NCBI GenBank assembly: GCA_963855995.1
Contig: OY979727.1
Coordinates: 12,020,946-12,084,945 of the forward strand
DNA: 64,000 bases
Source: Muricea muricata
Taxonomy: Eukaryota; Cnidaria; Anthozoa; Malacalcyonacea; Plexauridae
Direction of reading: 5' to 3'
Under the pieces are notes generated by a model. That model was not told the DNA's origin. It did no database searches and was given only the letters and a program-made list of their open reading frames with translations. The translations under genes were made by a program, and so were the position numbers. Below are positions 1 to 36,648 of this stretch, piece after piece. Every line of letters starts with the position of its first letter. The stretch's first letter is position 1.

Positions 1-415
1 TCTAAAAGAACATAAAAAAGGAAATTGAGATTAAAGTCCAGAAAACTTGATGTACCATGTAACCCGCAAAGTAAAACTTTTTTAAAAAATCAACCAGTTA
101 CCGAACAGCCGGAAGTCCTGGTAAAGATCCTCGTGCTGAATTAAACTACCCATAAATCAAAATTAACGAACGATTGTGACCAGAAAAAAAAATTTATTTG
201 ATCTAGCTTTATTAGACGAAAATGAGAAACTTAAATGACAACCAAAAGTAATCTAGTTTTTTTGCTTTAAAGACCACCACAGCTATTGTGACAGTAATTT
301 AAGTATAAACGACATACATATTTGATGATGATAACAACATACCTTGGCATAAAACTTGGATGATAGAAAACACACAGAACAGTATAAAACTCACAAAGCT
401 CTTCCTTGAAGTCAT
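1..415 (-). CDS. Receptor array unit 1, signal-peptide exon (gene cut by left edge)
   Basis: Only the 5' end of a discoidin-receptor-like gene is present. Exon 1 is 343-415: ATG at 415, reading MTSRKSFVSFILFCVFSIIQ then VLCQ, a typical hydrophobic signal peptide, ending at a GTATGT donor in phase 1. The exon 2 acceptor (TTCTTTTAG) lies at the very edge, so exon 2 begins at base 1 and the discoidin domain is outside the window. The assignment rests on matching the exon 1/intron/acceptor layout of units 2-5 downstream. The signal peptide differs more from the others (they begin MFGSFILSC or MFRSFIISC), so this is a more diverged copy. Whether the rest is intact cannot be seen. Confidence 0.65.
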
Positions 416-1239
416 CTAAAAGTTGAGTAAGAACAGTCTGTCTTAAGACTCTTAAATATAGCATAAAAACCTTAATTTCCTGTGTTGTAATCTTTTAGTT
501 CGTTTTCGAGTCGGTTTATACCGGTTTCACTATACTCTGATAGTAGCTAATCTTAAAAAAAGGGTAGAATAGTGAAACTTATGAAGAAGTCTCGAATTAA
601 AGTCTTTAAAGCCGAAAGAGTCTTGTTGGAATATCTCCTCAAAAGTCAGATAAACACCTTGATAGTCCGGATTCAGGTCATTATATAAATTTCTTAGACT
701 GGTGCGTCTTACTAAAGGTCTTTATATGACAAAGATGTATCCTCAGTCTCCGCCTTTAACTCTTAGAACTGACTCGTTCTGAGTTGATAGTTTATGCAAT
801 TTTAAGGATGCATACAAAACAAACTATTTATACTGAGCAAGCTCGGCTTGGGTTGCATCAAACGAACACAAGTGTAAAGCAATTGGTATATGTATATTTC
901 GATTTCTTCCGGTGGATCTGTTGCTGATTAATTTTTCCTAACTTCTATAAAATCGCCAACCTTGTAACGAATTACAACGAACACGGCCTTCTAAATTAAA
1001 ATGAAACCCTGACAAAATACCATTCAGTTTTTAGCATCGTCAGCACTCAAACTACTTTGTTTCTCGTCTCTTGACGTCTGTAGAGCTAATATACCTTCAC
1101 TTCGTTTGGCATTGTTACAACTCGAAGAAACCCTATAAACTACGGAAACGCAAGGTGCTCAAGATACAAGCATATTTGTTTGCAACGACTGCAAGAAGCC
1201 AGCAGTCAGGTACCACCAAACATTGAGAAAACCTAACTG
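416..1239. other. 5' flank module of unit 1
   Basis: No gene is seen. Bases about 780-1239 are a diverged copy of the module that also lies upstream of the other units (2,690-4,140, 11,740-12,490, 28,480-28,830), recognisable by the shared run around AAGAAGCCAG and the ATTGAGAAAAC text. It is probably promoter-proximal or noncoding 5' sequence of the array genes, duplicated with them. Confidence 0.4.
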
Positions 1240-1247
1240 ATCAGGGC

Positions 1248-1615
1248 CTGTTCATATGGGAAGAAGTTTTCCCGGTTAGCGAAAAAACATTTCGACAAGT
1301 TTACAAGATCTCGCCTTCTTACGAAAATAGTATGAAAAGTTACCTTGCGTTCATATGAGACGAAAAGTTTTCCCGTTAACCGAGATCTCGCTTGATGACA
1401 GGCGAGATCTCGGTGACCGAGATAATTTTTATCCCATATGAACACAACTTTCCCGCTTAGCGGGAAAACTTTCTGTTTACACTTTACAAAATCTACATCA
1501 CCGCGGGAAACTTTACCTGGTAAGCGGGAAAACATTTCTCCATATGAACAGAACAACATTTGATCTGTCGAAATGTTTTCTTGGGAACCGAGATAACTTC
1601 TACCCATATGAACAG
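1248..1615. mobile_element. MITE-like palindromic insertion with CTGTTCATATGGG ends
   Basis: Terminal inverted repeats CTGTTCATATGGG (1248-1260) and CCCATATGAACAG (1603-1615) bracket a GC-richer segment full of internal CATATGAAC and TTTCCCGCTTAGCGGG-type palindromes. The flanking text on both sides continues the duplicated 5' flank module, so this is an insertion into it. The open minus-strand frame inside is not a gene. Confidence 0.6.
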
Positions 1616-2689
1616 TATTATAGATGAAGCTATGCGAATGTACTTGGACGGATTTCTGCAGTGTCTGATTTGAAGAGTGCATTTGACATTACAAGCCGGT
1701 TGAGAATAAGATTACATGGCGGACGTAGCTACAATAATTTACTAATTCATTTACACTACCAACTGTACGTCACAAAACATGCAGTAATGTTTTATGCCAT
1801 TCAACTAGAAGGCGTAGGATGATATTGAAGAGCCTATATACTATAATGGTGTTATTTTTTTATCTTTCTACCAGTAAGCAAACAGAGTTTTATATACTAA
1901 ATGTGATCATGTCATGAATTACCCGTCACGGCCAAATTTACAAATAAACTTAACCAACACTTTCGTCTGCTTACCATTTCCATTTTAAATATTAAAGACC
2001 ACCAGAAGACTTATAAACCAAGGATTTTCGGAACTTAAACGGACACGGAAAACCCATGTAGAAGTCAAGATCAATTAATGGGACACACTTCCAATGATAG
2101 CAGACATAAAAGTATAGTACAGTACAAAGCAGCGAGATTCCGACTTGCCATACAACTATACGCCTACCACAATACAGCTACTGGCAAGAGTCTGATTGGT
2201 TAATCTACCAGGTCCAGCACCTCTGATTGGCTGAAAGAAAGATTAAGGTAGAGGTAGTCACAAATGAAACGTGCAAAATTATCATATAAATGAGACGTGA
2301 CAAGTACCATAGGAACCGGATTTCTCTGCTTGCGATACCCGATGATAAAAAAAGCCATAGACTATTTGCGAGTTATAATTTTGCTAATTTCTCAACAAGC
2401 CGCAACAAAATTGTAAATTTCGTCGAGTTACAATCATTTGTCTGTCAAAATATCCCCAAATATAGCATGAAACTTGTCATTTGTAGACTTGTTTGCAGAT
2501 TGTTGAAATATCTTGCAGGAAGCTTGTGGTAGCGTAAAGCATAAAGTCTTCTTTATTTACATTACACTAATAAGTAAGGACATATCTATTGTGTCTGGTC
2601 CCTCAATTCCTTGTTCTCAAAGAATGTTCATGTGTTGATGGTTCAGGGATGAATTTATTGCAAGAGTTCGCGGAATGACCGTAGTGTTT
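1616..2689. other. Intergenic, no gene recognised
   Basis: The first ~150 bases continue the 5' flank module after the MITE. The rest is AT-rich sequence with short chance ORFs and no domain, RNA gene or clear repeat that I can recognise. Confidence 0.4.
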
Positions 2690-4140
2690 GTTGGAATAGC
2701 TCTATCTTAAAAAATTAACTAAGTTAGAGTTAAATACCGAGGAGGGAGTTATGTTATATAAAGACCCAGAAGATGCGCCATTGCGCAGGAACTTTATTAA
2801 ACAACGCCATCTAGCTCTAAATCCTGAGTTGATAGTTTACGGAATTTAAAGTTTAGAAAACGAATCGAATTATTTATACTGAGCATGAAAGCTCGCCTTG
2901 GGTTGCATCAAGCGAGCGCATCTGTAAAGCAATTCGTATAAATATATTTTGATACTGGGCTTATTGTTGATTACGTTTTCTCAACTTTTGTAGAACTTGC
3001 AACTTTGTAATGAATTTCATAGTCTGATTTTACAACAAGCACAGCTCTCTAAACCACAGGCATCCTAGCACACGTTACGTCATTGCATACATTATTATAT
3101 TAATATCCTAAGGCTGGCAACTCTTTTACAGTAATAAACTGACACACGTTAGACTTTCGCTTCAAACAAACAAAATTAACACAATTTACCGCAAAAAACT
3201 AGATACAAATGATCTTGGATATCTCTTCTACATTTCTAGATAGTTTTTAGACAAAAACAAGATTCGAAAATACGTAAACTTGTTCAATAAAAAGTGTTTT
3301 TGATCGAAATTTTCCGTGTAGATAGGCGGGATGCAAAGTGCCCTACAAACGTCACTATCGGAAACGACTTCGGCTAAGCAAGTCTAAGTTCCTATTGGCT
3401 GCTATTGAACTCGTCTTTTCTTCGGCGTTTCCGAGTTCTCATGAGCCAATAGGAGCTTAGCCGAAGTCATTTCCGAAGATGACGTTTGTAGGGCACTTTG
3501 CATCCCGCCTATCTACACGGAAAATTTCGATCAAAAACACTTTTTATTGAACAAATTTAAGTATTTTCGAATCTTGTTTTTGTCTAAAAACTATCTAGAA
3601 ATGTAGAAGAGATATCCAAGATCATTTGTATCCGGTTTTTTTGCAGTAAATTGTGTTAATTTTTTAGTTTAAAGCGAAAGTCTAACGTGTGTCAGTTTAT
3701 TACTGTAAAAGAGCTGCCAGCCTTAGGATATTTATATATAAAAAAGTTTTTTCTGTCAAATTACTATTTCAGTTTACCATCGGCCTCGCCAGCACTCGGG
3801 CTACTTTAATTGTTACTATATACCAACATACACTTGTCGTACCTTCGATGTCCGTAGAGCTAATATACTTTCACTTCGTTTGAAATTGTTACCACTTGAA
3901 GAAAACCTATAAACTACGACAACACAAGGTGCTCAGGATACAAGGATATTTGTTTGCAACGACTGCAAGAAGCCAGAAAGATGATAACACGTACACCAAA
4001 CATTGAGAGAACTTACTTTATAGATGACGCTTAGTGAATGCACTTCCTCGAATTTCTTCGGTGTCTGGTTTGATAAGTGCATGTGACGTTACAAGCGGGT
4101 ATTGGGAGTGCGCATTATCTGGCGGACGCGCCTTAAATCA
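2690..4140. repeat. Second, gene-less copy of the array 5' flank module
   Basis: Bases 2690-3060 and 3740-4140 are strongly similar to 11,745-12,110 and 12,110-12,490 upstream of unit 2, but no receptor exons follow on the low-coordinate side. This is a flank left behind by a lost or rearranged unit. It is interrupted by the foldback element at 3103-3731. Confidence 0.6.
3103..3731. mobile_element. 630-bp foldback element (near-perfect long inverted repeat)
   Basis: Two arms of about 290 bases run in opposite directions from ATATCCTAAGGCTGGCA at 3103 to its reverse complement ending at 3731. They are separated by a short centre around 3390-3440 that itself can pair (CGGCTAAGC ... GCTTAGCCG). 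Arms differ by only scattered substitutions. A fragment of the same family lies at 40,330-40,475. There is no coding capacity, so it is a non-autonomous foldback or MITE-type transposon. Confidence 0.8.
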
Positions 4141-4298
4141 TTTCTGCGTCATTTACCTTGTGCCACTTGAAGATGACGGATGTTATAGAAGTTCCTATAT
4201 ACCATCTAGTGTTTGTTTGTCTATGTACTTAGGCAAAGTATTTTATGGAAATAAGCAAAGAGCAATAAACTCTGAAAGTTATAATTGTTTTAACACTA

Positions 4299-5564
4299 TG
4301 TTCACAGGATGCCGGTACGAAAAAGTGCCGTCTAATTTCATTCTATTAGCAACGCCCAGAATATTGCAGATTCGGTGTCTATGTGGTCTGTTGAAAACAG
4401 AATGCAGCTTAATCCTGATAAGTGTAAGGAGTTGAGAATCTCGTTTAACGCAAAACCAAGATCCTTCGACCCAATAGTAGTTAATGGGAAACAGTTGGAA
4501 GTTGTTACGAATTTTAAACTTTTAGGTCTTAATATTAACAATAAATTGACGTGGAATCATCACATAGACGATGTTGTTAAAAAGGTCAATAAAAGACTTT
4601 ATTTCCTGAAGCAGTTAAAGCGTGCGAAAGTTCCGTGCAAAAGGTTGGCAACATTTTATACCTCGTGTATCAGATCAGTTATTGACTATGCTATCCCGGT
4701 GTTTTATCATTCGTTGCCTCAATATTTGCAAAATGACCTGAAGCGCCTGGAGAAACGAGCTATGGCCATAACTATGCCTACAGAAAGTTATTCCAATACA
4801 TTAAATATTCTTGGCATTCCATCATTGAAAGACCATCACGAACAACTTTGTGCAAAGTTATTTCAATCTGTTGTGTCTGATATATATCATAAAATCCATA
4901 ATCTTTTACCGGACAGGAATCAACCTAGTTATAATTTGAGGCAAGAAAGGACCTTTAACATTCCTATGATTCACACAAATAGAGTTAAAAACTCCTTTAT
5001 ATATGCGATGTGTAACAAACATAATCTTAGTTAATATTGTTCATTCTTAGAGTTTTTAGATACAATTCAACTTTCTTTTGTAAATATTTTTGTAAGTGTT
5101 TATACACTATATAAGTAGAATTTATTGTAATTTACGTAATTCAGCCTTTGGCTGCGAGGTAAACTTAAATATATACATACATATATACATACATAATTTC
5201 CAGTCCGCCACTCCGTTTTGTACTGTTTTCACGATACCGGTTCAATTTAAATTAAGTACGATTTCAACGCGTGTTCACACGATATTAAATCAAATTCGCC
5301 GTTTTAACTTTTGAATTTGAGTATGAATTTGGTGACAGAATATAACTAGAAAATTGGGAACTGAAGCGGTATCAAAAAGTGCTGTTTTCGGTGTTCACAC
5401 GATACGGCAAAGCGTTACTATACGTTTTCATCTCATGCCGTTTAGAAACCGGCATTGTTTCGTGACTATATCGTACAATTTCGTACCGGCATCGTGTGAA
5501 CAGAAAGCGTACGTTAAAGTAACTTTTCATGCTGCTTTCGCCCCGTATTAGCATCGTGTGAACA
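4299..5564. mobile_element. TIR element TGTTCACAxGATGCxGGTACG, copy 1 (split by a LINE)
   Basis: The left end TGTTCACAGGATGCCGGTAC (4299) pairs with the right end, whose reverse complement starts TGTTCACACGATGC (5564). Internal GTTCACACGATA motifs recur. Full-length sister copies at 12,634-13,031 and 28,984-29,373 are only about 400 bp. The extra ~860 bp here is the LINE insertion at about 4338-5194. Confidence 0.7.
4338..5194 (+). mobile_element. 5'-truncated LINE, 3' end of reverse transcriptase ORF
   Basis: An open frame from about 4345 to the stop at 5032-5034 encodes the C-terminal part of a non-LTR reverse transcriptase: the thumb-like region with W-x-x-x-N-x-M-x-L-N-x-x-K-C, then YTSCIRSVIDYA and a terminal LLPDR-type segment common to CR1/L2-like LINEs. 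The element ends in a TATATACATACATA microsatellite tail. Both edges abut TAATTT, consistent with a short target duplication, and the uninterrupted host element is seen at 12,634-13,031. It is truncated at its 5' end, as is usual for LINEs. The frame is still open, so the insertion is relatively young. Confidence 0.85.
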
Positions 5565-5569
5565 TAGTC

Positions 5570-6125
5570 TAAAGCAGTTACTCTTTTTACATTATTTTTA
5601 AAATAGTTTTGATATTTTTAAAATAGTTTTGATAAGGGTGTTTGATATCTAAAGAAGTCGTAGTATGAAAAAACCCCAGACCGGACGTGATTTGACAACG
5701 CGACGCAAATTTTCTGTTTTCAGCGATCTGTATCTCTAATCAATTTTCATTTTTTTTCAATCTTCGAAACGACCTGAGAAATTTAAGCTATTTGGTGCAG
5801 GTATCTTGCAAAATTTCATTCCGTTAATGGTTTTATTTAGCTTTGGAAACTAAAAAATCGCGTCGCTTTGGGAAATCGCGTCGCTTTGGGAAATCGCGTC
5901 CAGTCCGTGCGTTTGTTGCATGCGGAGTTGCAACACCTGCATGGGTAGTGGTGAAGTAGGCGAAAATGTTGGAACAAAGAATTGTTTTTGTTTTACAAGT
6001 GTGCCAATCTGCCACCGCTATTTTTGTTCAGCGGCTATTATATGCCAGTGTCATGTAGTCACGGTTCCCACGACACAATCAACCACATTCTAGAACGATT
6101 GAACGACATAACGCGAGACACAGTC
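5570..6125 (+). repeat. ORF-bearing repeat, copy 1 (decayed, truncated)
   Basis: Similar to 13,040-13,520 and 29,400-29,900. It contains the CGTCCAGTCCGTGCGTTTG block, a short tandem duplication of GGGAAATCGCGTC, and the start of the conserved ORF (HILERLNDITRD), which is then lost at 6119-6125. At that point unrelated sequence carrying the small gene at 6257-6832 begins. The product is not recognised. Confidence 0.5.
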
Positions 6126-6256
6126 AAAATTATGCAATTATTGATTATGGAGAAACTTTGTGATACAACAGCATTACCAATGTTCTCTAAGCATTTTCTT
6201 TTTGCAATATGAAATGATGAAGTTAGAAATATGTTATGTATCATCATTTAGTACTA

Positions 6257-6832
6257 TTAGTACTCACATTTGTGGATGCTTTTATAATTTTTCCATACTT
6301 TAGCTCTCTGAAGAATCCTTTTGCCACCCCCAGGACAAATGTCTTTCAGTGACTCATAACAAAGGGCCTTTATATCCTCGTCCATAATGATTTCAGAATC
6401 TATATAAATTCATCGATATTAATTATGGTAACAATAACAGTGAATGATTGTTCAGAAAGTTGTGTATTGGCAAGCTAATACGGCGGTCTATTCAAATATC
6501 TTAAATATCACAAATGGCGCCAATTTATGACACATGGTACAGGACGTTGCCAAAATATAATAAACAATTGTTGATAACGTACTGACACTACTACGTTAAA
6601 TTGTCCTAAATTGTCCTCTTAGATAACTTTTTTAAATAACTAACATTGAATAAGCTGGTCACGTTATACTCTGGATGTATGTAAATGAATTGCTCCCCCA
6701 CATGTTACACATAATTATATATTTATATTTTACATAAATAGCGTTAAAAGAAGTGTTACCTTCAAGCAGCTCGCCAATTTCTCTGTTTGCGTTAAGTATC
6801 TGCTTCATCACCGTGTTTGATTTGGTAGACAT
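6257..6832 (-). CDS. Putative small two-exon gene, 71 aa, unknown
   Basis: Exon 1 is 6760-6832 (ATG at 6832, begins MSTKSNTVMKQILNANREIG) with donor GGTAACA in phase 1. Exon 2 is 6257-6399 after the acceptor TTTATATAG, completing the split codon in frame and reading on to CPGGGKRILQRAKVWKNYK and a TAA at 6257-6259. The two open exons, matched phases and plausible splice sites support a gene. The predicted protein is small, charged and soluble, with no signal peptide. A GT donor also overlaps the last codons (AAATGTGAGT), so the true gene could continue into another exon, but I found no convincing partner. It has no paralogue in the window and matches no family I know. Confidence 0.4.
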
Positions 6833-9263: not shown

Positions 9264-11450
9264 TCACTTCATCAATTTTTGGTATCGGGTGTTATCATCC
9301 GGTTCTCGTTTTGTGCTGTCCAGTTTTGTGTAGCCTGGGAGAGATTTTAGTTTTTCTTCGTCCGGAGGTGGAGTATATGGTATAACATAACCTGAATCAT
9401 CTATTATCAGTTTCTCATAGTGGTTATCATCCGTCTCCTCTCGCTGGTTCCTGTCAAGCTCAGTGTAACCCGAAGATGGCGAGGTTATTTCTTCGTATAT
9501 TGTGGTTTCAACCCCAGTTGGATTAACAAGACCTGAGTCAAGTCTAAATAGTGTTGGCGTTCCTCTTGTTTCATGTTGGTCTCTCTCAAATTCAGAAGAC
9601 GCACGGTTAAAGATTTGAACAGCTTCGTATGGCGCCGTTCTACGAGGAATTGGTGTAACATAACTTTGTCGTTCTGATGACGTTTCAATGGTTGGAATTC
9701 CGTTATCTTGATTCTGTTAACACATTTAAATTATATAGTTTAGCTAGCACCTGTATCATCACTGGATCAATAGTTGATGATCCCGACTGGACCTCTTGGA
9801 AGAACAGTTTAGAATTGATAGAACTATCAAGTATAATTAAAGATATAGTTTAGTTTAGGTTTCCTCCTGTAGTAACACTGGATCAATAAGAGACGATTCT
9901 AACTGGAGCTTTAGAAAGAACAGTCTAGAACTGATTGAGCTATCCAGTATAAATAAAGTTAGTTTAGTTTAGGTCTCCTCCTGTAGTAACACTGGATCAA
10001 TACGAGATGATCCGTACTGGACCTCTAGGAAGATTTGTTACATCTGATAGAACTACCCAGAATATATAAAGTCAGTTTACTTTAAATTATTTTAATTTCT
10101 TCAATAGCAACACACCTGATTACTTTGTGATGGTCCTGCAACTGCTGCATGATGTGTTTCAACTGTGTCTTCTGCATTTGATAACTTCGTTGTTTTCAGT
10201 CGCTTTTTGCATATTATAAGAATTAGAGCCAAGAGAAGAGCAACGGTAACTAGAACTGCAACAATTACTTGCGTTGTAGTCGAACTTGTTTCTAGGAAAA
10301 TACAAAATAACAAAGACGTTGTAGATATAGACGCAATCTAGCTTTTATCACACCAATCGCACCATGTGATTACATTACAACGTAATAATAAGATTAAGAA
10401 AACCAAATTATCACAAACCTTTTTCAACTGTTGGTACACAGCCATACAGCTCAAGTCTCATACATACTTGGTTAGGCGGGTAATAACCTGGATGAACCCT
10501 GATGTACCTTGCCACAATTACAGGGTCTACGTTATGTCGTACGACACTAAATACATCAGTATTTCCCTGGAATATCTAAAACAATACACATATAGTTGCA
10601 CCTCAATGAATACTTAATACATGAATTGAATCGAGCATCAGATATTACACTGAACTCCACATATCATTTTCTTCCTGTAGTAACAATGAATCAATTAGAC
10701 TCCTCAGGCTTTCTATTAAATTTACCTTAACAGTTTTATTTTTTTCTTGATAAAAATTCCATATTCCATCATCTTTTCTGTAGGATATTTTATAGTCCTT
10801 AGCATATTCTCTTCCTCCAGAATATGATCGTCCTTGTGTTGCAATACCTGTGATTTTTGTCAGATTCACCAAATCAATCTGAATAAACTGATCATAATTC
10901 TTTTCAGTTATCTTTCCTCCTGTGATGTCTGGACACCATGCACCCCACTGTCGAACATTGCGGTTTAAACGAGCCAGCCAAGCATATGGGGTCTTTTCTT
11001 TGACAACACTAGAAGCTGTGATTTGCGAGTCTTTGATCCTGCCATTTTGCATCCCAAGTGGCGATGTACATTCTAAAAGAATATAAAAAGAGAATTACGG
11101 TCGAGATTACACGAGATCAAGAAAATTTGAGTGTGTATATATGAGCCGAAATTCGTCTATGTTTCTAACCCTAGTACGTCTTAACCCATAAGTAAAACTT
11201 GTGCAAAATCGACCAGAAAAATCAAACGATTGTGACCAGGAAAAAAATACTTGAATCTAGCGTTTGACTGTGTTTTATTGCGAGATGACAACCAGAAGTG
11301 ATGAAAACCAAAAGTAATCTATAGTGTTTTAAACTCCAAAAAATTCACTGCGATGTTGATACACCACTGATATTAATCCTGAATTAACATACCTTTGCTT
11401 AGAACTTGGATTGTAAATAGCACACAGGATAGGATAAAACTTCCAAACAT
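9264..11450 (-). CDS. Unit 2: DS-TM receptor with ITAM-like tail (395 aa)
   Basis: Five exons give one intact frame: 11393-11450, 10726-11072, 10419-10575, 10116-10291, 9264-9713; all junctions are GT-AG and phases agree. Residues 1-19 (MFGSFILSCVLFTIQVLSK) form a signal peptide. Residues 20-187 are a discoidin (F5/8 type C) domain of DDR type: ITASS, GAWCPD, IQIDL, TQGR, YKISY, then CMRLELYGC, with four cysteines placed as in DDR1/2. The transmembrane helix is about 196-215, followed by CKKR. The 149-residue tail exon has nine tyrosines. Y319EEI and Y329TEL are six residues apart and fit the ITAM consensus, followed by YEKL, YVIP, YTPP, YTKL and YQKL. There is no kinase domain and no DS-like or stalk exon; DS splices straight to TM. 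It is probably a surface receptor signalling through phosphotyrosine/SH2 docking. The ligand is unknown. Confidence 0.85.
9740..10085. repeat. 114-bp minisatellite in unit 2 last intron
   Basis: About three degenerate copies of a 114-bp unit (AACACTGGATCAATA ... GATAGAGCTATCCAGTAT ... AAAGTTAGTTTAGTTTAGG) fill the intron between the TM and tail exons. The same intron in units 3 (16,600-16,860), 4 (23,040-23,400) and 5 (34,740-35,070) has it. The same repeat is present in reverse orientation at 58,877-59,310. Confidence 0.8.
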
Positions 11451-13897: not shown

Positions 13898-14110
13898 TTA
13901 TGTCTTCATCAATTTTTGGTTTTGGGCGTTATCGTCCGGCTCTCGTTTTGTGCTGTCCAGTTTTGTGCAGCCCGGAAGAGATTTTAGCCTGGAGGTGGAG
14001 TATATGGTATAAAATAACCTTAATGATCTATTACCAGTTTCTCCTAGTGGTTATCATTCGTCTCCTCTCGCTGGTTCCTGTCAAGCTGAGTGTAATCTGA
14101 AGATGGCAAT
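13898..14110 (-). pseudogene. Relic of a receptor cytoplasmic-tail exon
   Basis: The reverse complement aligns with the 3' half of the unit 2/3 tail exon: YTQLDRNQREET, then IPYTPPP, then the wording around QNWTAQNESR in a shifted frame. It has in-frame stops (one replaces the YEKL tyrosine), a substituted GYVIP motif and an internal deletion. No TM or ectodomain exon is attached. It marks a lost array member. A second relic of the same type lies at 31,462-31,677. Confidence 0.75.
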
Positions 14111-16135: not shown

Positions 16136-18721
16136 TCACTTCACCAATTTTTGGTATTGGGTGTCATCGTCCGGTTCTCGTTTTGTGCTGTCCAGTTTTG
16201 TGTAGCCCGGAAGAGATTTTATTTTTTCTTCATCTGGAGGGGGAGTATATGGAATGACATAACCCGAATTATCTATTACAAGTTTCTCATAGTGCTTGTC
16301 ATCCGTCTCCCCTCGCTGGTTCCTGTCAAGCTGAGTGTAACCCGAAGATGGCAAGGCAATTTCTTCGTATATTGTTGTTTCAACCCCAGTTGGATTAACA
16401 AGGCCTGAGTCAAGTCTAAATAGTGTTGGCGTTCCTCTTGTTTCATGTTGGTCTCTCCCAAATTCAGAGGACGCACGGTTAACGATTGGAACTACTTCGT
16501 ATGGCGCCGTTCTACGAGGAATTGGTGTAACATAACTTTGTCGTTCTGATAACGTTTCCATAGTTGGAATTTCGGCATCTTGATTCTGTTAACACATTTA
16601 AATTATATAGTTTAGATTTCCACCTGTATCATCACTGGATCAATTAATTGTTGATGATCCTGACCAGACCTCTTGAAAGAACAGTTTAGAATTGAAAGAG
16701 CTATCCAGTATGAATAAAGTTAGTTTAGTTTAGGTTTCCTCAGTAACACTTGATCAATAAGAGACTATCCTTACTCGACCTCTAGAAAGAACAATTTAGA
16801 ACTGATAGGGCTATCCAGAATATATAAAGTTAGTTTATTTTTAATTAGTTTTGTTACCTTTAGAAACACACACCTGATTATTTTGTGATGGTCCTGCGAC
16901 TGCTGCATGATGTGTTTCAACTGCGTCCTCTGCATTTGATAGCTTCGTTGTTTTCTGTCGCTTTTTGCATATTATAAGACTTACAACCAAGAGAAGAGCA
17001 ATGGTAACTGCTAGCGCAACAATGACTATCGTTGTACTCGAACTTATTTCTACGAAAATGCAAAAAGGTAATGCTCAAGTCTTCTAGTTCCATCTTTTTC
17101 GCATTTTTGCACTTCTTCCCTTTAATTTCGCCTTATAAATTCGCGATCGATTTTACTTTCATCTCTTTTTATAGCTAATATTATTCGAATTTGACAGTCC
17201 ACAATTCGAAATTTTCAGAAAGAGTCTCTGTAAGGAGGAGAGAACCATGCATGACCATGCACCATGTTGATAGCAAAGTAAAAATCTTTGTTATATATAG
17301 ACATGTAGATTAGAACACTTACCGTTAAACGACTTGGTTGATGAGGAAGAAGTGTTAGTCGATGAAAAAGTTCCTGAAGTAGCAGTGTTAGTCGATGAAG
17401 AGGTTCCTGAAGTAGCAGTGGTTGTCGATGATCTTTCTACACAAATATAGACAATACTCTTATTTCCTTCGTTTCCGTTGGCAGAAACTAATAACAGAAA
17501 CAGCATACGTAGGATGCTTCACCGATTGGAACTTAATGCATTAATACATAGCACATAAACACCCACCATTTTACTTTTTAAATTGGTAGTGTCGTACTTT
17601 ACCCAATCGTCAACAAATAACAAAATACCTGAATTAAAATTGATCTCGGTGATGAGCAGTTATCCCCCATGCAGCCAGACACATGACAATACATTATGAT
17701 GTCATAATTAGGTAAAAGGAACAAAATTATCACAAACCTTTTTTAACTTCCAGTATACAACCATAAAGCTCAAGTCTCATACAGGGTTGGTTTTGCGTCG
17801 AGTAATAACCTGGATGAACCCTGATGTACCTCGCTATAATTGCTGGGTCTAGGTCATGTCGTACAACACTGGATTCATCAATGTTTCCCTGGACAATCTG
17901 AAACAAAATAGATAGTGGCAATTGGTGGGTACGTTATACATAGTATTACAACAGTTCCATCACACATGTAAGACTCATCATTTCAAAATTTCAATTAAAT
18001 TTACACTTTCATCGTTCTCTTGATAAAAATTCCATATTCCACCATCTCTTCTGTAGGATATTTTATAGTCCCTAGCAAATTCTTTTCCTCCATTATATGA
18101 TCGTCCTTGTGTTGCAATTCTTGTGATTTTTGTCAGATTCAACAAATCAATCTGAATATACTGATCATAATTCTTTTGAGCTATCTTTCCTCCTGTGTAG
18201 TCTGGACACCATGCACCCCAGGCTGGAATACTCCTGTTTAAACGAGCCAGCCAAGGAAATGGCGACTTTCCTTTGATAACACTAGAAGCTGTGATTTGTG
18301 AGTCATTCATCCTGCCATCTTCCATGCCAAGTGGAGATACACATTCTAAAAGAATGTAAAAAAGGGTTAAGGTCGAGATTACACGAGATCAAGAAAGAAC
18401 ATTTGAGTGTGCATGAACCGAAATTCGTCTCTTTGTCTAACCTTAGTACGTCTAACCCATAAGTAAATCTTGTGTATAATTGACTAGAAAAATCAAACGA
18501 TTGTGACCAGGAAAAAAAAACTTGAATCTAGCGTTTGATTATGTTTTATTGCGAGATGACAACCAGAAATGATGAAAACCAATCTATAGTTGTTTAAACT
18601 CCATACAATTCACTGCGATGTTGATATACCCAGTATATTAGTCCTGAATTAACATACCTTTGCTTAGAACTTGGATTGCAAATAACACACAGGAAATGAT
18701 AAAACTTCTAAACATCTTCAT
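16136..18721 (-). CDS. Unit 3: DS-Ser/Thr stalk-TM receptor with ITAM-like tail (~434 aa)
   Basis: Six exons form one intact frame: 18658-18721, 18005-18345, 17738-17897, 17323-17436, 16874-17049, 16136-16585. ATG at 18721 is used; a second in-frame ATG at 18715 matches unit 2's start and gives 432 aa. Order: signal peptide (MFRSFIISCVLFAIQVLSK), DDR-type discoidin domain (GAWCPD, IQIDL, TQGR, CMRLELYGC), a mucin-like Ser/Thr stalk with TATSGT-SSSTN repeats, TM helix, KKR stop-transfer, and a 149-residue tail with nine tyrosines. The ITAM-like motif YEEIALPSSGYTQL is at 16328-16369. An upstream stalk acceptor (TCTGTTATTAG) would add residues and also stays in frame, as used in unit 4. The DS-like exon is deleted; a scrap of its 3' end remains near 17,630-17,680. 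Confidence 0.85.
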
Positions 18722-22581: not shown

Positions 22582-25500
22582 TCACTTCATCAATTTTTGG
22601 TATTGGGTGTCATCGTCCGGTTCTCGTTTTGTGCTGTCCAGTTTTGTGTAGCCCGGAAGAGATTTTATTTTTTCTTCATCTGGAGGGGGAGTATATGGAA
22701 TAACATAACCTGAATTATCTATTGCGAGTTTCTCATAGTGGTTATCATCCGTCTCCTCTCGTTGGTTCCTGTCAAGCTCAGTGTAACCCGAAGATTGCAT
22801 GGCAATTTCTTCGTATATTGTTGTTTCAACCCCAGTTGGATTAACAAGACCTGAGTCAAGTCTAAATAGTGTTGGCGTTCCTCTTGTTTCATGTTGGTCT
22901 CTCTCAAATTCAGAAGACGCACGGTTAAAGATTTGAACTCCGTTCTACGAGGAATTGGTGTAACATAACTTTGTCGTTCTGATGACGTTTCAATGGTTGG
23001 AATTCCGTTATCTTGATTCTGTTAACACATTTAAATTATATAGTTTAGCTAGCACCTGTATCATCGCTGGATCAATAGTTGATGATCCCGACTGGACCTC
23101 TTGGAAGAACAGCTATGAACTGATAGAGCTATCCAATATAAATAAAGTTAGTTTAGTTTAGGTTTTCTCCTGTAGTCACACTGGATCAATAAGAGATGAT
23201 CCTTACTGGACCGCTGGAAAGGACAGTTTATAACTGATGGAGCTATCCATGCGTATAAATAAAGTTAGTTTAGTTCAGGTTTCCTGCTGTGGTAACACTG
23301 AATTGATAAGAGACGATCCTTACTGGACCTCTGGGAAGAACAGTTTAAAACTGATAGAGCTATCCAGAATAAATAAAGTTAGTTTAGTTTAAATTATTTT
23401 AATTGCTTCAAGAACAACACACCTGATTATTTTGTGATGGCCCTGCGACTGCTGCATGATGTGTTTCAACTGTGTCCTCTGCATTTGATAACTTCGTTGT
23501 TTTCTGTCGCTTCTTGTATATTATAAGAATTTGACAACCAAGAGAAGAGCAATGGCAGCTGGTACCGCAACAATGATTTGCGTTGTACTCGAACTTGTTC
23601 CTACAAAAATGCAAAAAGATCTGAAGTCTTTTAATTTCATCTTTTCCGCATTTTGCACTTTTTTCTTCCCTTTAATTTCGCCTTATGAATTCGATTGTAC
23701 TTTCATCTGTTTTTATAGCTAATATTATTTGAATTTGACAGTCCACAATTCGAAATTTTCAGAAAGAGTCCCTGTAAAGAGGAAAGAACCATGCATTACT
23801 ATATGCACCATATTGACAGTAATGTAATAATCTTTGTTATATATAGACATGTAGATTAGAACACTTACCGTTAAGCGACGAGGGTGATGAGGAAGCAGTG
23901 GTAGTCGATGAAGAAGTTCCTGAAGTAGCAGTGGTAGTCCATGAAGAAGCTCCTGAAGTAGCAGTGATAGTCGATGAAGAAGTTTCTGAAGTAGCAGTGG
24001 TTGTCCATGGTCTTGTTACGGGAGTATGGATGTGGTTAACTTGTGTTGTAGCGGTGATAGAACCATTGGAAATATTCTTATTTCCTTCGTTTTCGTTGAT
24101 AGAAACTAATAACAGAAACAACATACAATAATTAAGTAGGATGCTTCACCGATTGGAACTTAATGCATTGATATCTAGCACATAAACACCCACCATTTTG
24201 CTTTCAAATGCTAGCGTCATACTTTACTCAATCGTCAACAAATAAAAAAATACCTGAATTAAAATTGATATCGGTGAGTAGCAACCACAGGCCACCAACA
24301 TTTAACCTCAAATTTATAAACCTTGCTATATTTTCACAAAGTGACAAAGTTACACTGTGACTCTGAGAAATGTTATCTGTAAAATTTCTAAAACAGTACT
24401 GAACTTTGTTTGTGAAATTATGTTTGGTTGAGGCGAAAAATATCTGTGATCTTTCCAATAGAGCATAACCGCACATGTACTATCAATATTACCAGTAACC
24501 AGTAATCTTTGAACTTTCGCACGCCAAAAAACTCAAGTGTAATGTCAATATATGATGACAGTTAAATTTCTATTCCATCCCACCCATCCTTCGCCTTCAT
24601 CCCGTTTTGCATCATCAGGACCAAACTTGCCATCTGTTAGTATTCCAATACCATTTTGTAAACGTCATTATTAACTCCATTCATTATAAGATGTGTCTTT
24701 AAAGGACACTTTGTCATTGCTTGTCGTGTGTCCAATTGACATTGAGCAGAAGAGAATATCTAGAATAGTGCACATAAATTTGTGTTGTCAGATTAAAGAA
24801 ACAAGATTATAACAAACCTTTTTCAACAGTTGGTGCACATCCATACAGTTCAAGTCTCATGCATACAGGGCTGCCTATATAAACTGGATAAACCCTGATG
24901 TTCCTCGCTAAAATTACAGGCTCTAGGTTATGTCGTACAACACTGGATACATCTGTGTTTCCCTGGAATATCTAAAAAAAAAGTGGCAATTAGTGAGACT
25001 TAGTACGTAATACATAAGTATTACAACAATTGGATCAATCATCACACATGTAATTTCGTAAAATGTATAAAAAATACAAGATTAAGACTCATCATTTCAA
25101 AATTTCAATTAAATTTACCTTCACAGTTTGATTTTTTTCTCGATAAAAATTATATATATGTTCCATTATCTCTACTGTAGGATATTTTATAGTTCCTAGC
25201 ATATTCTTTTCCGTTAGAATATGATCGTCCTTGTGTTGCAATTCCTGTGATATTTGTCAGATTCAACAAATCAATCTGAATATACTGATCATAATTCTTT
25301 TCAGTTATCGTTCCTCCTGTGATGTCTGGACACCATGCACCCCAGGATGGAATATTCCTGTTTAGACGAGCCAGCCAAGGAAATGGCGATCTTTTTTTAT
25401 AAACACTAGAAGCTGTGATTTGCAAGTCTTTGATCCTGCCATCTTCCATACCAAGTGGAGATTTACATCCTAAAAGAACATAAAAAACGGTTAAGGTCAA

Positions 25501-26432
25501 GAGATACGATCAAGAACATTTGAGTGTGTGCATGAATCAAAATTCGTCTATTTTTCTAACCCCAATGCGTCTGACCCATAAGTAAATCTTGTGTATTATC
25601 CCATATGTGTGATGAAAGCGGGCTTCTGATTGGTTCTCGGCAGGTTAGTTTTTTTCGAACTAACCTTCTTTTTTCGAACTTACCCGCTGTTCTCTTTTAT
25701 CGATAAAACCGGCTTTCTGATTGGGGACAAAAACCCGAACTGACTGCTTGTTGCTTACGCTGCCGTCTGCCAAACTGTTCAACAGCAATAACGAACAAAA
25801 TTTAGCTGATTATTAAACCTACACTTTAAAGGTAAAAAAATGGGCACTTGGGCAAAAAATGACGCAGAAACCAAGCAAAAAGAAACGGAAAATTGTAAAC
25901 TAAAGACAATAGAGACCCTGATAAAGAAATATTAAGAGACCAACAAGTTTAAGAAGAGAAAATGTTGACAAAATACATCGGTGACATCGGCGACTCAGCG
26001 AGCCTCGGAAAACAACACAAGAAGATAAGTTTAGTATGGGATAAAAACCCAACTTACTTGCAGGTTCGGTTGGTTCGGGATTAACGCACCTCGGGGTCTG
26101 ACAGCTGCCCGAACCTACCTCGCTTCGCGTCAGGTGCTTTAATCCCGAACCAACCTCTCTGCAAGTAAGTCTGTTATAAAATCAACCGTAAAAATCAAAC
26201 GATTGTGACCAGGAAAAAATTACTTGGATCTAGCGTTTGACTGTGTTTTATTGCGAGATGACAACCACAAGTTAAGATGAACACCAAAAGTAATCTATAG
26301 TTTTTTAAACTCCAAACAATTCACTGCGATGTTGATATACCCAGTATATTAATCCTGAATTAACTTATCTTTGCTTAGAACTTGGATTGTAAATAACACA
26401 CAGGATAGGATAAAACTTCCAAACATCTTCAT
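22582..26432 (-). pseudogene. Unit 4: receptor pseudogene with fullest domain plan
   Basis: All exons of the family are present: signal peptide 26369-26432, DS 25119-25469 and 24818-24971, DS-like about 24,230-24,760, Ser/Thr stalk 23869-24105, TM 23423-23600, tail 22582-23018. Lesions: the exon 1 donor is AT, not GT (AAAG|ATAAGT). A 4-base insertion in an AT run of DS exon 1 causes a frameshift and stop. The DS-like exon has several frameshifts and stops. The TM exon carries 2 extra bases. The tail exon lacks 13 bases. The stalk exon is intact, with TATSGTSSSTT-type repeats, and the distal tail (ITAM-like motif at 22774-22815) still reads through. DS exon 2 is open but substituted. Several independent lesions make a functional full-length product very unlikely. 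Confidence 0.85.
25597..26178. mobile_element. Composite palindromic insertion in unit 4 intron 1
   Basis: Absent from the same intron in units 2, 3 and 5, where TTGTGTA is followed directly by the AAATC-G/A-ACC text. Bases 25,597-26,043 start TATCCCATA and end TATGGGATA. Bases 26,045-26,175 form a second palindrome (CTTACTTGCAG ... CTGCAAGTAAG) around GGTTCGGGATTAA and its complement. It is non-coding. Confidence 0.55.
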
Positions 26433-29373: not shown

Positions 29374-29399
29374 TAGTCTAAAGCAGTTACTCTTTTTAC

Positions 29400-31310: not shown

Positions 31311-31461
31311 ATTGAAGTAGTTTCGTCCGAACACTGTTTACTAATAATGCAACATATAAATGAATAATTCAGCCAAATTTATACTTGTAATATTCCAATG
31401 AAACATTCAAACATTATTTTCGAGAACGTACGAGAAATTTATCCAAAGACCACATAGTTAT

Positions 31462-31677
31462 GTCTTCATCAATTTTTGCTTTTGGGCGTTATCGTCCGGT
31501 TCTCGTTTTGTGCTGTCCAGTTTTGTGCAGCCCGGAAGAGATTTTATTTTTTCTTCGTTTGGAGGCGGAGTATATGGTATAACATAATTTGAATTATCAG
31601 TTTCTCATAGTTGTTATCATTCGTCTTCTCTCGCTGGTTCCTGTCATGTTGAGTTTAACCCAAAGATGGCAATGTGG
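31462..31677 (-). pseudogene. Second relic of a receptor tail exon
   Basis: The reverse complement aligns with the 3' half of the array tail exon (LDRNQREET-like, IPYTPPP, QNWTAQNE in a shifted frame), with a deletion in the YEKL region and stops. It shares the same neighbouring text (ATGGCAATGTGGAGCAAAGATGAC) as the relic at 13,898-14,110, so both come from one older decayed copy that was later duplicated. Confidence 0.75.
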
Positions 31678-31702
31678 AGCAAAGATGACTAATTATCGAA
31701 CA

Positions 31703-31942
31703 TTTAAAACTTCGTGGCGAAGTTCGGAAGATCGTTGCAAAGTTCAAAAGTTCATTCTTGAATACGCAAGCCGGTTTGTAAGCTAAGCATTTGATTGGCT
31801 TTTTTGAGTTCAGGAGCCAATCACAGCCTTTGTTTACAAACCGGCTTGCGAATTTTGAAATGAACTTTTGAACTTTGCCAACTTCCGAACTTCGCAACAA
31901 AGTTTGGAATATTACAGCATGAAAGTTAGCTGAAATCGACTG
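31703..31942. mobile_element. Mariner-like MITE, left-truncated copy
   Basis: The palindromic core and right end (GTTAGCTGAAATCGACTG then TA) match 14,516-14,808. The left CAGTCGAT terminus is missing. Confidence 0.6.
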
Positions 31943-34260
31943 TAATTGATTTAAGCTTGTCCTACATGATAAAGTCTAGTTCCACCCCTAATGTGCTTGT
32001 CTTTCTTTAAACACTTGGCTATGTAAAAAAAATAGACGGAGATGAGAGCCAGCTTATTCATTGTGACGTTTTAGAACACACTAGAACACGATGAAGGACC
32101 TACTAGAACTCAATTAAAACCTCATAAAACTAAACTGTCTTGATAAATCACAGAGTATTTTAATTATGTACTGAAATAAATATTACATAAACTTAAATAA
32201 CTATTATAGAAATGATGGTTTGGAAGCTTATAATTACAACACAAGTCATTATCTATGTTTTTGTTCTGGTTTATGGAAAATAAGGTTGCTCATCGTCACG
32301 CATGTATTGAGCACGACATGAACAATTAGACAGTTCAAGAATTGATATTGATGATTCTGTAAAAATACATAACAAACGTGACTAAATTTATGCATAAAGA
32401 CCGAGTAACAAAGATAAGGAGTTATATTTCTTATTCTAACAATTTCTTCATTTAACTATGATGAAACTGGCAATTTTGTTGAAACTTGTAATATTCTGGT
32501 AAAAGTCTGTTGCTATTTTCGCATATGGGTATATACACTCCTTCTTTCAAGAGGTTCAAGAGGGGAATTATAGACCAACCATTCATTCTTTTTGTATTCT
32601 ATGGAACTGAATGTGACTTTATAGTGATGCAAAGTTCTTGATATTGTATTTAGACCTGATATATTTATTTAGTATCCATTTTCAATTGTTTTTAATTGCG
32701 GAAGGGGCGGAATACCGTCTTCAGAGGACACTTGAGGATACACTTCGGGCTATGCGTGGGTTATTTCCATAGAAATAATAGATATAGAATGAGTACTCCT
32801 ATTTTTTTTCCGTGAAAATTTTGTCTCCACAAAATGGCGGATTTATGAGGGCATTTTGGCTAGTCCAAGACTCTTACGCGGAGAATTTCGCGCGGTTGCG
32901 AGGAGTGCGATTGTTTTTTTTTGTCAAGCAAAGTTTACAGAAAGATAAAAATTCGTGACTTTACATGGAAAATGGTTCATAAAAACTTTTAAACAAAGGA
33001 AAACGAATTTATGAGTTTTTTACGAGAAAGGATTAGTCCTGAGCAGATAATACAAAGAAATTGGAGTAAAAAAATACAAGTTTTCAAAATTGCTGCAAAA
33101 GCCGAAAAAGATAAAACTCAAAAACAGAGTCAGAGGATGAAAAACAATCTCAACAGGTGTGTTTTAGCGTTTTTAAATACATATATATGAAAACAGTTAC
33201 GATGATTGATAGTTACAAAGAATGAAATGGTTACCTTTGTTGGTTTTTGTCTGTGTTTCTTAATTATATATTTAAAAGGCATGCATGCAATTTGGCAATG
33301 ACAATTTCAAGTAATCGATATTTGCTCATACAATTACATCTTACACTCAGCATAATAGTTTACTATAGTTTACATAGCTGCCGTTTTTTGAAACGGAAAC
33401 TTAAAGTTCTATTATTAAGCTTCAAAAGTCAATGAAAAAACGATTATTTGGCCACTTTGGCTTTGTTTATAGCGAAATTTTCAGTCATGCCTCGGGAATG
33501 CAAAATGTTTCAAAATTAAGTCATGTTTACGCAAAACTACGACAGTTTTTTGTCTTAATTTAAATACACGACTATATGAAGAACTATCTTTATTTCAGTT
33601 TGTTTCTTCAAGAGCACCATATTCTAAACTGTAAATGTGATAGTATTTAAGTGATTTATTTGTGATGAACTTTGTATATACACTCTGCAGTTCAACTCCT
33701 GGTCAAATTCAATATGGCGGATTTAAAAGGGCACTTGCGAAAAAAAGTGGAGACATGATTCGTGACCGAGTACGCATTCTATATCTATTATTTCTATGGT
33801 TATTTCCTTTAATTTCAGGCGAAGGGAATATTGTTCAAAACAGGATAAACGAAATTAGCTACGCATGGAAAAGAAACAAATAATGAAAAGAAGTCATACC
33901 CTACAACCTATAACGAGCTTTAAAAGACGAAGAACATTCACTTGACTATGAAGTTCTGCTTATATTGTATGAGAAATGAAGGCATTTATGAATACATGTT
34001 TTTATCATATCTTCTTAATTATATACATCGTTCTTAGATTAGAAAATTGCAAACGTTCACTTACAAAGATGCCTATTTGAATAAATATACTATCTTTATT
34101 AACATGAATCCTATTAGATTATTTACAATTTAAAAAGCGTTTGATTTGCACAGTTAAAAATTTTAAACCAAAAATTTGGCGAAAATTCATGGTTTACAAC
34201 AGTCTAAGTACATCACTCAATCATGACTTTCGCGGACCTACAAGATATTTTCTAAAAACC
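31943..34260. repeat. Spacer duplicon R1, long form (copy B)
   Basis: 31,943-33,560 closely matches 7,630-9,230. It includes pseudo-exon A at 33,011-33,156 (open, MSFLRERISPEQI). Pseudo-exon B follows at about 33,820-33,940 but has a 4-base AGCT insertion that brings a stop. It is the only copy with both exons, in the order expected for a spliced plus-strand gene, and it is broken. 33,960-34,260 matches the region just after the tail exons of units 3 and 4. Confidence 0.6.
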
Positions 34261-34266
34261 ATGTAG

Positions 34267-36648
34267 TTATGATTTCATCAATTTTTGGTATTGGGTGTCA
34301 TCGTCCGGTTCTCGTTTTGTGCTGTCCAGTTTTGTGTAGCCCGGAAGAGATTTTAGTTTTTCTTCGTCCGGAGGTGGAGTATATGGTATAACATAATCTG
34401 AATTATCTATTACGAGTTTCTCATAGTGGTTATCATCCGTCTCCTCTCGCTGGTTTCTGTCAAGCTCAGTGTAACCCGAAGATGGCAAGGCAATTTCTTC
34501 GTATATTGTTGTTTCAGCCCCAGTTGGATTAACAAGACCCGAGTCAAGTCTAAATAGTGTCGGCGCTCCTCTTGATTCATGTTGGTCTGTCTCAAATTCA
34601 GAGGACGGGTGGTTCAAGATTTGAACTACTTCGTGTGGCGCCGTTCTGCGAGGAATTGGTAGAACATAACTTTGTCGTTCTGATAACGTTTCACTAGTTG
34701 GAATTTCAGCATCTTGATTCTGTTAACACATTTAAATTGTATAGTTTAGTTAGCACCTGTATCATCACTGGATCAATAGTTGATGATCCCGACTGGACCT
34801 CTTGGAAGAACATTTTAGAATTGATAGAGCTATCTAGTATGAATAAAGTTAGTTTAGTTTAGGTTTCCCCCTGTAGTAACACTAGATCAATAAGAGATGG
34901 TCCTTACTGGACCTTTAGGAAGAACAGTTTAGAACTGATGGAGCTATCCAGCATGAATAAAGTTAGTTTAGTTTAGGTTTCCTCCTGTAGTTACGCTGCA
35001 TCAATAAGAGATGATCCTTACTGGACCTTTGGGAAAAACAGTTTAGAACTGATAGAGCTGTCTACCATAAATTTCTAATTGTTACTTTAAGAAACACGCA
35101 CCTGATTATTTTGTCGTTGTTCTGCAACTGTTACATGCTGTGCTTCAACTGTATTTGCTAACTTCGATGTTTGTTGTCGTTTTTTGTATATTATAAGAAT
35201 TACGACCAAGGAAAGAAAGGCAATTGTAACTGTTACCAGAGTAATCACGACATTTGCACTCGAAGTTGTTTCTATGAAAACATAAAGTAGCAAAAACGTT
35301 CTAGATATCGTCACATCGACGCAATTAAACTAGCTTCTCAGTTTATCACCATCATACCCATTATAATTATTATTATTAACCCTATATCTGCCATATTCAC
35401 CACAGCAATTACTATTACCAGTATTATCACAAGTACAGGAGCAGATTGCATGTACTCTGGCTGGGCAAGGTCCATTGAAATCATCCCTGTCCTCCAGGCA
35501 ATCTTGAAAAGGCGTTGTTTCGTTTCCCCTGGCAGGAACTAAATGTAGTGTAAGATACATAATAATAATGTAAGATACATTAGCCCATTGCAACGAAATA
35601 CGTTCACACCCACATTAACACCCGATTATTTTACTTAGAACAATTGTAGCCCCACACTTTACCCTATTGAAAATAGTGTAATAAAATACCTGAATTAAAA
35701 CTGATCTCGGTGATGACCAACCATTTTCCGCCAAAATATAACCTCAACTTCATAAACCTTGCTATATTTTCACAAAGTGACAAAGTTACATTTGTACTGT
35801 AACTCTGGGTAGCGTTATTTGTAAAATGTCTTAGACAGTATTGAACTGGGCTTGTGAAATTATCCTTGGTTAAGGCGAAAAATATCTCTGATTTATTAAA
35901 TACAGCATATCTACGGTTCTTGTAAACATTCACAGCAAGTGTAACATCTTTGAACTTTTTCACGCTGGAAAACTCAAATGTAATGTCGATATATGGTGAC
36001 ATAGTTACATTTCTAGACCATCCCACCCATCCTTCGCCTTTATGACCTTTCTCTTTTGCATTATCACGACCAAACTTGCCATCTGTAAGTATTCCAGTAC
36101 CACCTTTGAAAACACCATTGGTAATTATTCCATTATAAGATGTGTCGTTAAAGCTCACCCTCCCATTCTTGATCGTGTGCCCAACGGGCATTGAGTAGGA
36201 GAGAATATCTAGAACAGTAAACATTACAAAGTATGCTGTCAGAAACATGACAAGACATTATGATGTCATAATTAGGTAAAAGAAACAAAATTATCACAAA
36301 CTTTTTTTAACTTCCGGTACACCAAATAGTACTGAGTGTGCAAGAACCGAAATTCGTCTACTTTTCTAACCCTAGTACGTCTTAACACATAAGTAAAACT
36401 TGTGTAAAATCGACCAGAAAAATCAAACGATTTTGACCAGGAAAAAATACTTGAATTTTGAATTCATTGCGAGATGGCAGCCAGAAGTTAAGATGAAAAC
36501 CAAAAGTAATCTATAGTTTTTTAAAATCCAAACAATTCATTGCGATGTTGATATACCTTGTGTATTAATCTTGAATTAACATACCTTTGCTTAGAACTTG
36601 GATTGTAAATAACATACAGGATAGGATAAAGCTTCCAAACATCTTCAT
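34267..36648 (-). CDS. Unit 5: DS-like-Cys stalk-TM receptor with ITAM-like tail (~464 aa)
   Basis: Exons 36585-36648, 35690-36208, 35350-35538, 35102-35271, 34267-34719 join in one frame; ATG at 36648 (a second at 36642 gives 462 aa). The signal peptide resembles unit 2. Both DS exons are deleted, so the signal peptide splices to a 172-codon DS-like domain homologous to the second ectodomain module of DDR1/2: ITNGVFKGGTGILTDGKFG, GWVGWSRNVT, YIDITFEFSS, KWLVITEISFNS, with five N-glycosylation sequons. A stalk exon with seven cysteines (CPARVHAICSCTC) replaces the Ser/Thr stalk. The stalk donor chosen (GATG|GTGATA) is the one that keeps phase. TM and tail follow; the ITAM-like motif is at 34462-34503, but PYEVV is changed to PHEVV and one extra Ser precedes the stop. 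It may bind a different ligand from units 2 and 3. Confidence 0.75.

Follow-up and report, generated by a model that had tools for sequence, protein, structure and literature searches.

A receptor array on the minus strand

The window analyzed here is a 64,000-nt stretch of the 453-Mb Muricea muricata genome (C12:12020946-12084945), and its minus strand carries a tandem array of genes for kinase-less receptors that resemble discoidin domain receptors (DDRs). Units were located by tblastn searches of receptor modules against the window together with reading of the DNA, and signal peptides and transmembrane (TM) helices were identified by eye without a predictor. The strand holds three open receptor genes (u1, u2, and u5), a pseudogene (u3), the 5' end of a unit at the window edge, and two relics of the tail exon. 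A first-pass annotation had described at least five minus-strand units, and five are present; however, its unit 4 is the pseudogene u3, and the left edge truncates its unit 1, leaving only the signal-peptide exon inside. Units 2, 3, and 5 of that annotation presumably correspond to u1, u2, and u5. The exon order in the family is signal peptide (SP; phase 1), two exons for the discoidin (DS) domain, one for the DS-like (DSL) domain (1-1), a stalk exon (1-1), a TM exon, and a tail exon ending in a stop codon. The spliced gene models of u1, u2, and u5 show GT/AG splice sites and matching phases. The features of the array are as follows.

343..415, minus strand: signal-peptide exon of the edge unit (415-343 inside the window), identified by eye; the gene is cut by the left edge
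9264..11450, minus strand: u1, open gene of 395 aa with the order SP-DS-TM-tail; exons 11450-11393, 11072-10726, 10575-10419, 10291-10116, 9713-9264; PF00754, E 3.6e-20
9264..9713, minus strand: u1 tail exon with three ITAM-pattern matches and a stop at its end
13904..14109, minus strand: degenerate tail-exon relic, from sequence match
16136..18721, minus strand: u2, open gene of 451 aa with the order SP-DS-stalk-TM-tail; exons 18721-18658, 18345-18005, 17897-17738, 17487-17323, 17049-16874, 16585-16136; PF00754, E 1.6e-23
17618..17737, minus strand: weak DSL match within u2 (E 0.010), probably what is left of a deleted DSL exon
22582..26432, minus strand: u3, pseudogene that keeps the full order SP-DS-DSL-stalk-TM-tail, from exon matches
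31464..31879, minus strand: degenerate tail-exon relic, from sequence match
34267..36648, minus strand: u5, open gene of 447 aa with the order SP-DSL-Cys-rich stalk-TM-tail; exons 36648-36585, 36208-35690, 35538-35401, 35271-35102, 34719-34267; PF21114, E 1.9e-36
35690..36208, minus strand: u5 exon for the DDR DS-like domain; PF21114, E 1.9e-36; DDR1 DSL, E 4.4e-17

A Pfam scan placed the DS domain (PF00754) in u1 and u2, not in u5, and the DS-like domain of DDR1/2 (PF21114) in u5, which bears out the module assignments of the first-pass annotation; the same scan of the three proteins detected neither a kinase domain nor an immunoglobulin (Ig) domain. Against Protein Data Bank (PDB) sequences, the DSL exon of u5 matched only two DDR1 chains at E <= 1 (4.4e-17 and 4e-16). 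The DS domain matched coagulation factor V/VIII, neuropilin, DDR, and other chains, with coagulation factor chains outranking DDR1. Since the DS domain matches many kinds of protein and the DSL domain only DDR1, it is the latter that ties the family to DDRs. No intact gene in the window combines the two modules, as u1 and u2 carry DS alone and u5 carries DSL alone, with the end of a DS exon, seen by eye, retained in u5. The symmetric 1-1 modules would permit clean loss of either domain.

The edge unit continues just left of the window, where its DS, DSL, TM, and tail exons lie at C12:12018370-12020947. The lesions of u3 comprise an altered signal-peptide donor, a stop within DS, a frameshift in DSL, and a tail deletion that shifts the frame. 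The donor of the u5 stalk exon (35538-35401) is uncertain, with an alternative at 35350. A tandem repeat of 114-117 bp in 2.6-2.8 copies occupies the intron ahead of the tail exon in u1 (9760-10084), u3 (23067-23389), and u5 (34766-35059). The Ser/Thr-rich stalks of u2 and u3 are encoded by a 33-bp coding tandem repeat (17351-17431 and 23894-24009), and stalk length could therefore vary through repeat slippage.

Outside the window, the array proved larger than first described. A genome-wide search for PF21114 yielded 17 matches among the 18 candidates scored. Cluster A (C12 11.98-12.058 Mb, minus strand) consists of three von Willebrand factor A (vWA) units (A1-A3), the DS-DSL units A4, A5, and A6, followed by the units of the window. 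Cluster B (C12 12.407-12.472 Mb, plus strand), about 350 kb from u5, comprises eight units, adding seven kinase-less units (B1-B7) to the family. Both DS and DSL are present at the exon level in A4, A5, A6, and five of these seven (B1, B2, B3, B5, and B7); B4 and B6 have DS alone. The matched exons are stop-free in 12 kinase-less DDR-like units on C12 (A5, A6, u1, u2, u5, and B1-B7), of which u1, u2, and u5 have full gene models and the others are known from exon matches. Further copies occur on C1 and C3, several containing stops, and the tail matches of A4, C1y, C3x, and C3z carry stops.

The closest named proteins to a u1 query were P0001, P0002, P0004, and P0007 from Paramuricea clavata and Dendronephthya gigantea, with 57-63% identity over 33-47% of the query. 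This search for relatives, proposed in the first-pass annotation, recovered the kinase-less architecture in a second species. P0002, a D. gigantea entry of 591 aa named 'discoidin domain-containing receptor 2-like isoform X2', has DS, DSL, TM, and tail in a single chain, with two YxxL-x12-YxxL modules in the tail and no kinase. Its structure prediction was not used (mean pLDDT, the predicted local confidence score, of 44.1 with six sequences). A second Dendronephthya protein, P0033 (LOC114533655), contains the end of a DSL domain, a TM-like stretch, and a related YxxL tail; both entries give a contig of 924,213 bases, which hints at linkage of the two genes, short of proof. Paramuricea P0001 has the first half of DS and a related tail. 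The tail was thus present in P0001, P0002, and P0033, all octocoral, among nine sequences inspected of 33 proteins returned. In open-licence full texts, judged mostly by title and abstract start, we found no paper describing kinase-less DDR-like ITAM receptors or these Dendronephthya entries, in keeping with the earlier remark, made without a search, that no described family of this architecture was known.

A tyrosine-rich tail exon and a Syk gene

The tail exons of u1, u2, and u5 terminate in a stop codon, as had been noted for a single last exon without a kinase, and they bear the sequence marks of an immunoreceptor tyrosine-based activation motif (ITAM) receptor. Using the pattern YxxL/I-x6 to 12-YxxL/I, each tail, with its five YxxI/L motifs, gives three matches, and one tyrosine is common to the first two of these. 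Shuffling the residues reached three matches in 0 (u1), 1 (u2), and 0 (u5) of 2000 trials. A YxxL-x12-YxxL arrangement ends 19 of 25 tails of at least 80 aa, a set made up of 22 tails of this genome and 3 belonging to other octocorals. Three of the 28 rows compared were shorter and were left out, and two rows (C12a_12034849 and C12a_12052409) took wrong frames. At least five more tail matches lie outside the comparison (C12:11980654, C12:11610983, C1:89367941, C3:20329668, and C3:21920023). The 12-residue gap falls within the ITAM range of 6-12 residues (PMC6433993 and PMC9731471, in the parts consulted) and also occurs in FcgammaRIIA (PMC6433993).

The genome also encodes a candidate partner for such a motif. 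The N-terminus of human SYK finds a 588-aa open frame beginning at C5:5284748 (E 1.7e-47, 38% identity), and its product combines a kinase with two SH2 domains, SYK being the best PDB match (E 3.8e-138) and ZAP-70 the second. The immunoreceptor-style tail of the first-pass annotation is therefore matched by ITAM-spaced motifs in each intact tail of the window and by a tandem-SH2 Syk. The presence of Syk in animals of cnidarian grade, and a link of it to an ITAM pathway, have been proposed (PMC5978004, available in part), and sections of PMC12065747 report ITAM, hemITAM, and immunoreceptor tyrosine-based inhibitory motif (ITIM) sequences in candidate allorecognition genes of Hydractinia.

The same tyrosines could be read differently. 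YxxL/V/I can be an ITIM-like motif or an AP2-type endocytic signal, and YVIP can be a Crk-type SH2 site. The tails may accordingly be inhibitory, adaptor, or sorting sequences, with receptors that dampen signals, anchor adhesion, or endocytose. ITIM-type (S/I/V/L)xYxx(I/L/V) matches occur in all five tails scanned (u1, u2, u5, P0001, and P0002), and YVIP recurs downstream of the YQKL/YEKL motifs. However, the fixed 12-residue gap at the end of so many tails is unexpected for independent docking or sorting signals, and we regard this explanation as unlikely.

Across the genome, the tail gave 36 matches from 52 scored candidates, and it is shared with other ectodomains. The same exon lies behind vWA exons in three cluster A units (PF00092, E 6.6e-36 for the joined exons of one unit) and behind CUB exons on C2 at 7.2 Mb (CUB, E 3e-12 and 5.2e-12), the vWA-tail and CUB-tail splicing being assigned from position and strand alone. 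The three tandem vWA-TM-tail units occupy C12:11980654-11999448 on the minus strand, two of them seen with a repeat stalk and the tail of A1 coming from the genome-wide tail matches; close vWA relatives are found at C12 11.22-11.37 Mb. At C2:7213500-7220500, CUB exons are followed by TM and tail exons on one strand, with three ITAM-pattern matches. Unit B4 (C12:12442529 region) has a 400-codon tail frame of repeated tyrosine modules, far longer than the others.

Among u1, u2, and u5, tail dN/dS (the ratio of nonsynonymous to synonymous substitution rates) was 0.33-0.40, and the dN-dS bootstrap intervals were below zero in both bootstrapped pairs (u1-u2 and u1-u5); the tails look purified. This observation bears on whether the array consists mostly of decaying tandem duplicates with little function, as u3, the two relics, and the stops in the tail matches of A4, C1y, C3x, and C3z could suggest. 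Given the tails that appear to be under purifying selection, the 12 stop-free kinase-less units on C12, and the architecture kept in Dendronephthya, we consider general decay very improbable.

A DDR kinase gene in the sister cluster

The last unit of cluster B, B8, is a DDR kinase gene. Its DS, DSL, stalk, and TM exons are followed by a kinase exon (PF07714, C12:12470949, E 3e-57), and the joined kinase of 317 aa scored 346.8 bits against DDR1 and 336.9 against DDR2, compared with 252.5 for the best non-DDR chain, the BDNF/NT-3 receptor. When the B8 kinase was compared with 264,648 bases of receptor loci, the sole match was B8 itself, the next best hit (E 0.59) lying on the opposite strand within the B8 gene. 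A kinase downstream of the tail exon was accordingly rejected, as the stop ends the tail and no second DDR kinase match exists in these bases.

The gene models were read from genomic sequence, so DS/DSL and tail exons might belong to separate genes, or the tail might be skipped in favor of a distant kinase exon. The first-pass annotation had named both outcomes as ones that would overturn it, and neither appeared: in the genomic sequence no kinase follows the tail, and P0002 joins DS, DSL, TM, and tail in one chain. Together with the agreeing phases and GT/AG junctions of u1, u2, and u5, these results leave such an artefact hardly credible.

The TM exon of B8 is 63-74% identical to those of the kinase-less units A4, B1, and B2. 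In a tree of DSL sequences, B8 pairs with kinase-less B2 (89/93) and a C1 copy groups with Dendronephthya and Paramuricea sequences (93/92), both values being under the tree's starred level, with bootstrap unsettled. The latter grouping suggests that DDR-like copies already existed when these octocorals diverged. B8 is probably the source of the kinase-less family, and the simplest reading of B8 beside the kinase-less units is a 3' exchange after the TM exon in which the kinase would have been swapped for the tail. The earlier proposal that a DDR ectodomain was joined to an immunoreceptor-style tail and expanded in tandem thus gains from the DDR-specific DSL domain and from a DDR kinase gene in the sister cluster; however, the tail is not restricted to DDR-like genes, since it also follows vWA and CUB exons.

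In another explanation, the units that lack a kinase associate with the DDR kinase, joining its dimers or clusters by way of their related TM and ectodomain regions and being trans-phosphorylated, as scaffolds or decoys for DDR signaling rather than Syk-coupled receptors. The similarity of the B8 TM exon to those of A4, B1, and B2 is in its favor, and the consulted part of PMC5489314 reports that human DDR1 trans-phosphorylates signaling-incompetent DDR1, with the TM domain required. However, the TM exons of u2, u3, and u5 best match the u1 type among six TM queries and not the kinase type (u1 itself being that query), the tail also follows vWA or CUB exons where no DDR ectodomain is present, and the paired tyrosine spacing suits tandem SH2 domains better than single docking sites. 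A partner role is therefore rather doubtful, though it deserves consideration.

A divergent DS-DSL gene (C2:15473435-15476548, minus strand) has a TM exon and a short unrelated tail, and protein P0022 is a DS-DSL protein bearing yet another tail. Given these different tails, kinase-less DDR-like proteins may predate the present family. The C2 gene was considered as a kinase-bearing parent and provisionally set aside, as the DDR kinase had no match in 17 kb and none of the 139 kinase candidates scored, of 1197, lay nearby; B8 is the one clear DDR kinase gene.

Two further features of the window lie outside the receptor genes. At 42483-45578 on the minus strand, a neighboring gene encodes an SH2 domain (PF00017, E 5.3e-15) and presumably resembles the BCAR3/SH2D3 family. 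At 4336-5031 on the plus strand, an open frame matches PF09004 (E 8.9e-11), a domain common in reverse transcriptases of the LINE (long interspersed nuclear element) type.

Ligand pocket and proposed function

To compare ligand pockets, human DDR2 was aligned with 15 DS domains of this genome, including those of the pseudogene u3, of A4, and of the kinase gene B8. The DDR2 sequence used agrees with PMC2807035 at all 10 positions named there. According to that paper, the collagen pocket of DDR2 involves W52, T56, D69, R105, E113, and the C73-C177 disulfide. All 15 domains retain R105, C73, and C177, and 14 retain E113, compared with 4 for T56, 1 for D69, and 0 for W52. Of 160 columns, that of D69 varies most, showing nine residue types among the 15 sequences, and the columns of positions 175, 112, and 52 rank 5, 8, and 14. 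Taken unsplit, the nine scored contacts average 1.17 bits versus 0.72, a level reached by 439 of 20,000 random sets. A test that split rim from core (1 of 20,000 random sets) was set aside, as the rim was picked after the columns had been seen and loop position could account for part of the difference. The conserved R105, E113, and disulfide, along with variable contact columns, indicate a pocket whose core is kept and whose rim varies, which fits diversified ligands.

On balance, we favor the reading that the array encodes ITAM sensors that descend from a DDR, couple to Syk, and have diversified in their ligand pockets; we judge it probable, though far from assured, with signaling and ligand inferred from sequence. 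The kinase half of a discoidin domain receptor would have been replaced by the tyrosine tail exon, yielding single-pass receptors. Acting on DS or DSL, a ligand, whether collagen-like, another matrix protein, or a cell-surface protein, would cluster the receptors; a Src-type kinase would phosphorylate the paired YxxL motifs, and Syk would dock through both SH2 domains and then signal onward. Because paralogues retain the tail, vary the pocket, and may lose DS or DSL, the array would act as a set of differently tuned sensors.

Several observations weigh against this reading of Syk-coupled sensors. The W52 that DDR2 requires for collagen is the very residue found in none of the DS domains, and loops vary in general, which could account for part of the rim variation. 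The two DS exons have median dN/dS values of 0.71 and 0.53, and DSL has 0.50; 15% of pairs in each DS exon exceed 1. The first DS exon of u1-u2 has a dN/dS of 1.41, which is not significant as its bootstrap interval spans zero. These values do not show positive selection on the ectodomains. In 21 tails other than those of u1, u2, u3, and u5, the strict ITAM occurs once in 12, twice in 4, three times in 2, and in 3 not at all; shuffles equaled the single-ITAM tails in up to 144 of 2000 trials, and the first motif is YxxV in many tails. When the protein collection was searched with the tail, Dendronephthya proteins alone were recovered, and a vWA-group tail query found no protein at E <= 0.001 among 110 candidates. 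The former search did not recover Paramuricea P0001, a sign that these searches are insensitive, and absence from other species does not follow.

The array may serve an immune, allorecognition, or matrix-sensing function, as the first-pass annotation proposed. More tentatively, it may belong to a cnidarian immune or allorecognition complex in which a collagen-receptor kinase gave rise to Syk-coupled ITAM receptors, a portable tail exon came to serve ectodomains of the DS, DSL, vWA, and CUB types, and the pocket for collagen became a diversified recognition site with a fixed core (R105, E113, and the disulfide) and a hypervariable rim; we treat this wider picture as a speculative possibility. 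We know of no octocoral allorecognition genes, and the array, if the sensor reading holds, would be a concrete candidate recognition locus for octocorals. It would also mean that, in an animal of an early-branching lineage, a matrix receptor kinase became an immunoreceptor-style sensor family, which lies close to its kinase relative and shares the genome with Syk, offering a direct test of how ITAM signaling gained new ectodomains.

Compared with DDR1 and DDR2, the array shares the DS domain (F5/8 type C), the DDR-specific DS-like domain, a single TM helix, and a DDR kinase paralogue in the sister cluster. However, the array genes have no kinase, carry an ITAM-spaced tyrosine tail, and in the window retain DS or DSL only, and the DS domains of this genome depart from the DDR2 pocket at W52 (0/15) and D69 (1/15). 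They are not DDRs in the strict sense, and descent from a DDR is most likely; DDRs have also been reported from Hydra vulgaris (PMC10785288, consulted in part). Dendronephthya P0002 shares the kinase-less architecture and YxxL tail, and P0033 shares the YxxL tail and the end of a DSL domain, those entries being named by similarity only. Hydractinia Alr ectodomains are Ig-like and that of FcgammaRIIA is Ig-type. The Alr receptors resemble the array as cnidarian receptors with ITAM, hemITAM, or ITIM motifs (PMC12065747, in the sections available), whereas the Pfam scan found no Ig domain in u1, u2, or u5. The single-chain FcgammaRIIA likewise has YxxL-x12-YxxL (PMC6433993, in part), and the collagen receptor GPVI-FcRgamma, as far as the consulted sources describe it, leads from collagen through ITAM to Syk; homology of the tails is not claimed in either case, and the ectodomains of both are Ig-type whereas here they are DDR-type. 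The array would thus resemble the collagen-GPVI-ITAM-Syk route in logic, but within one chain.

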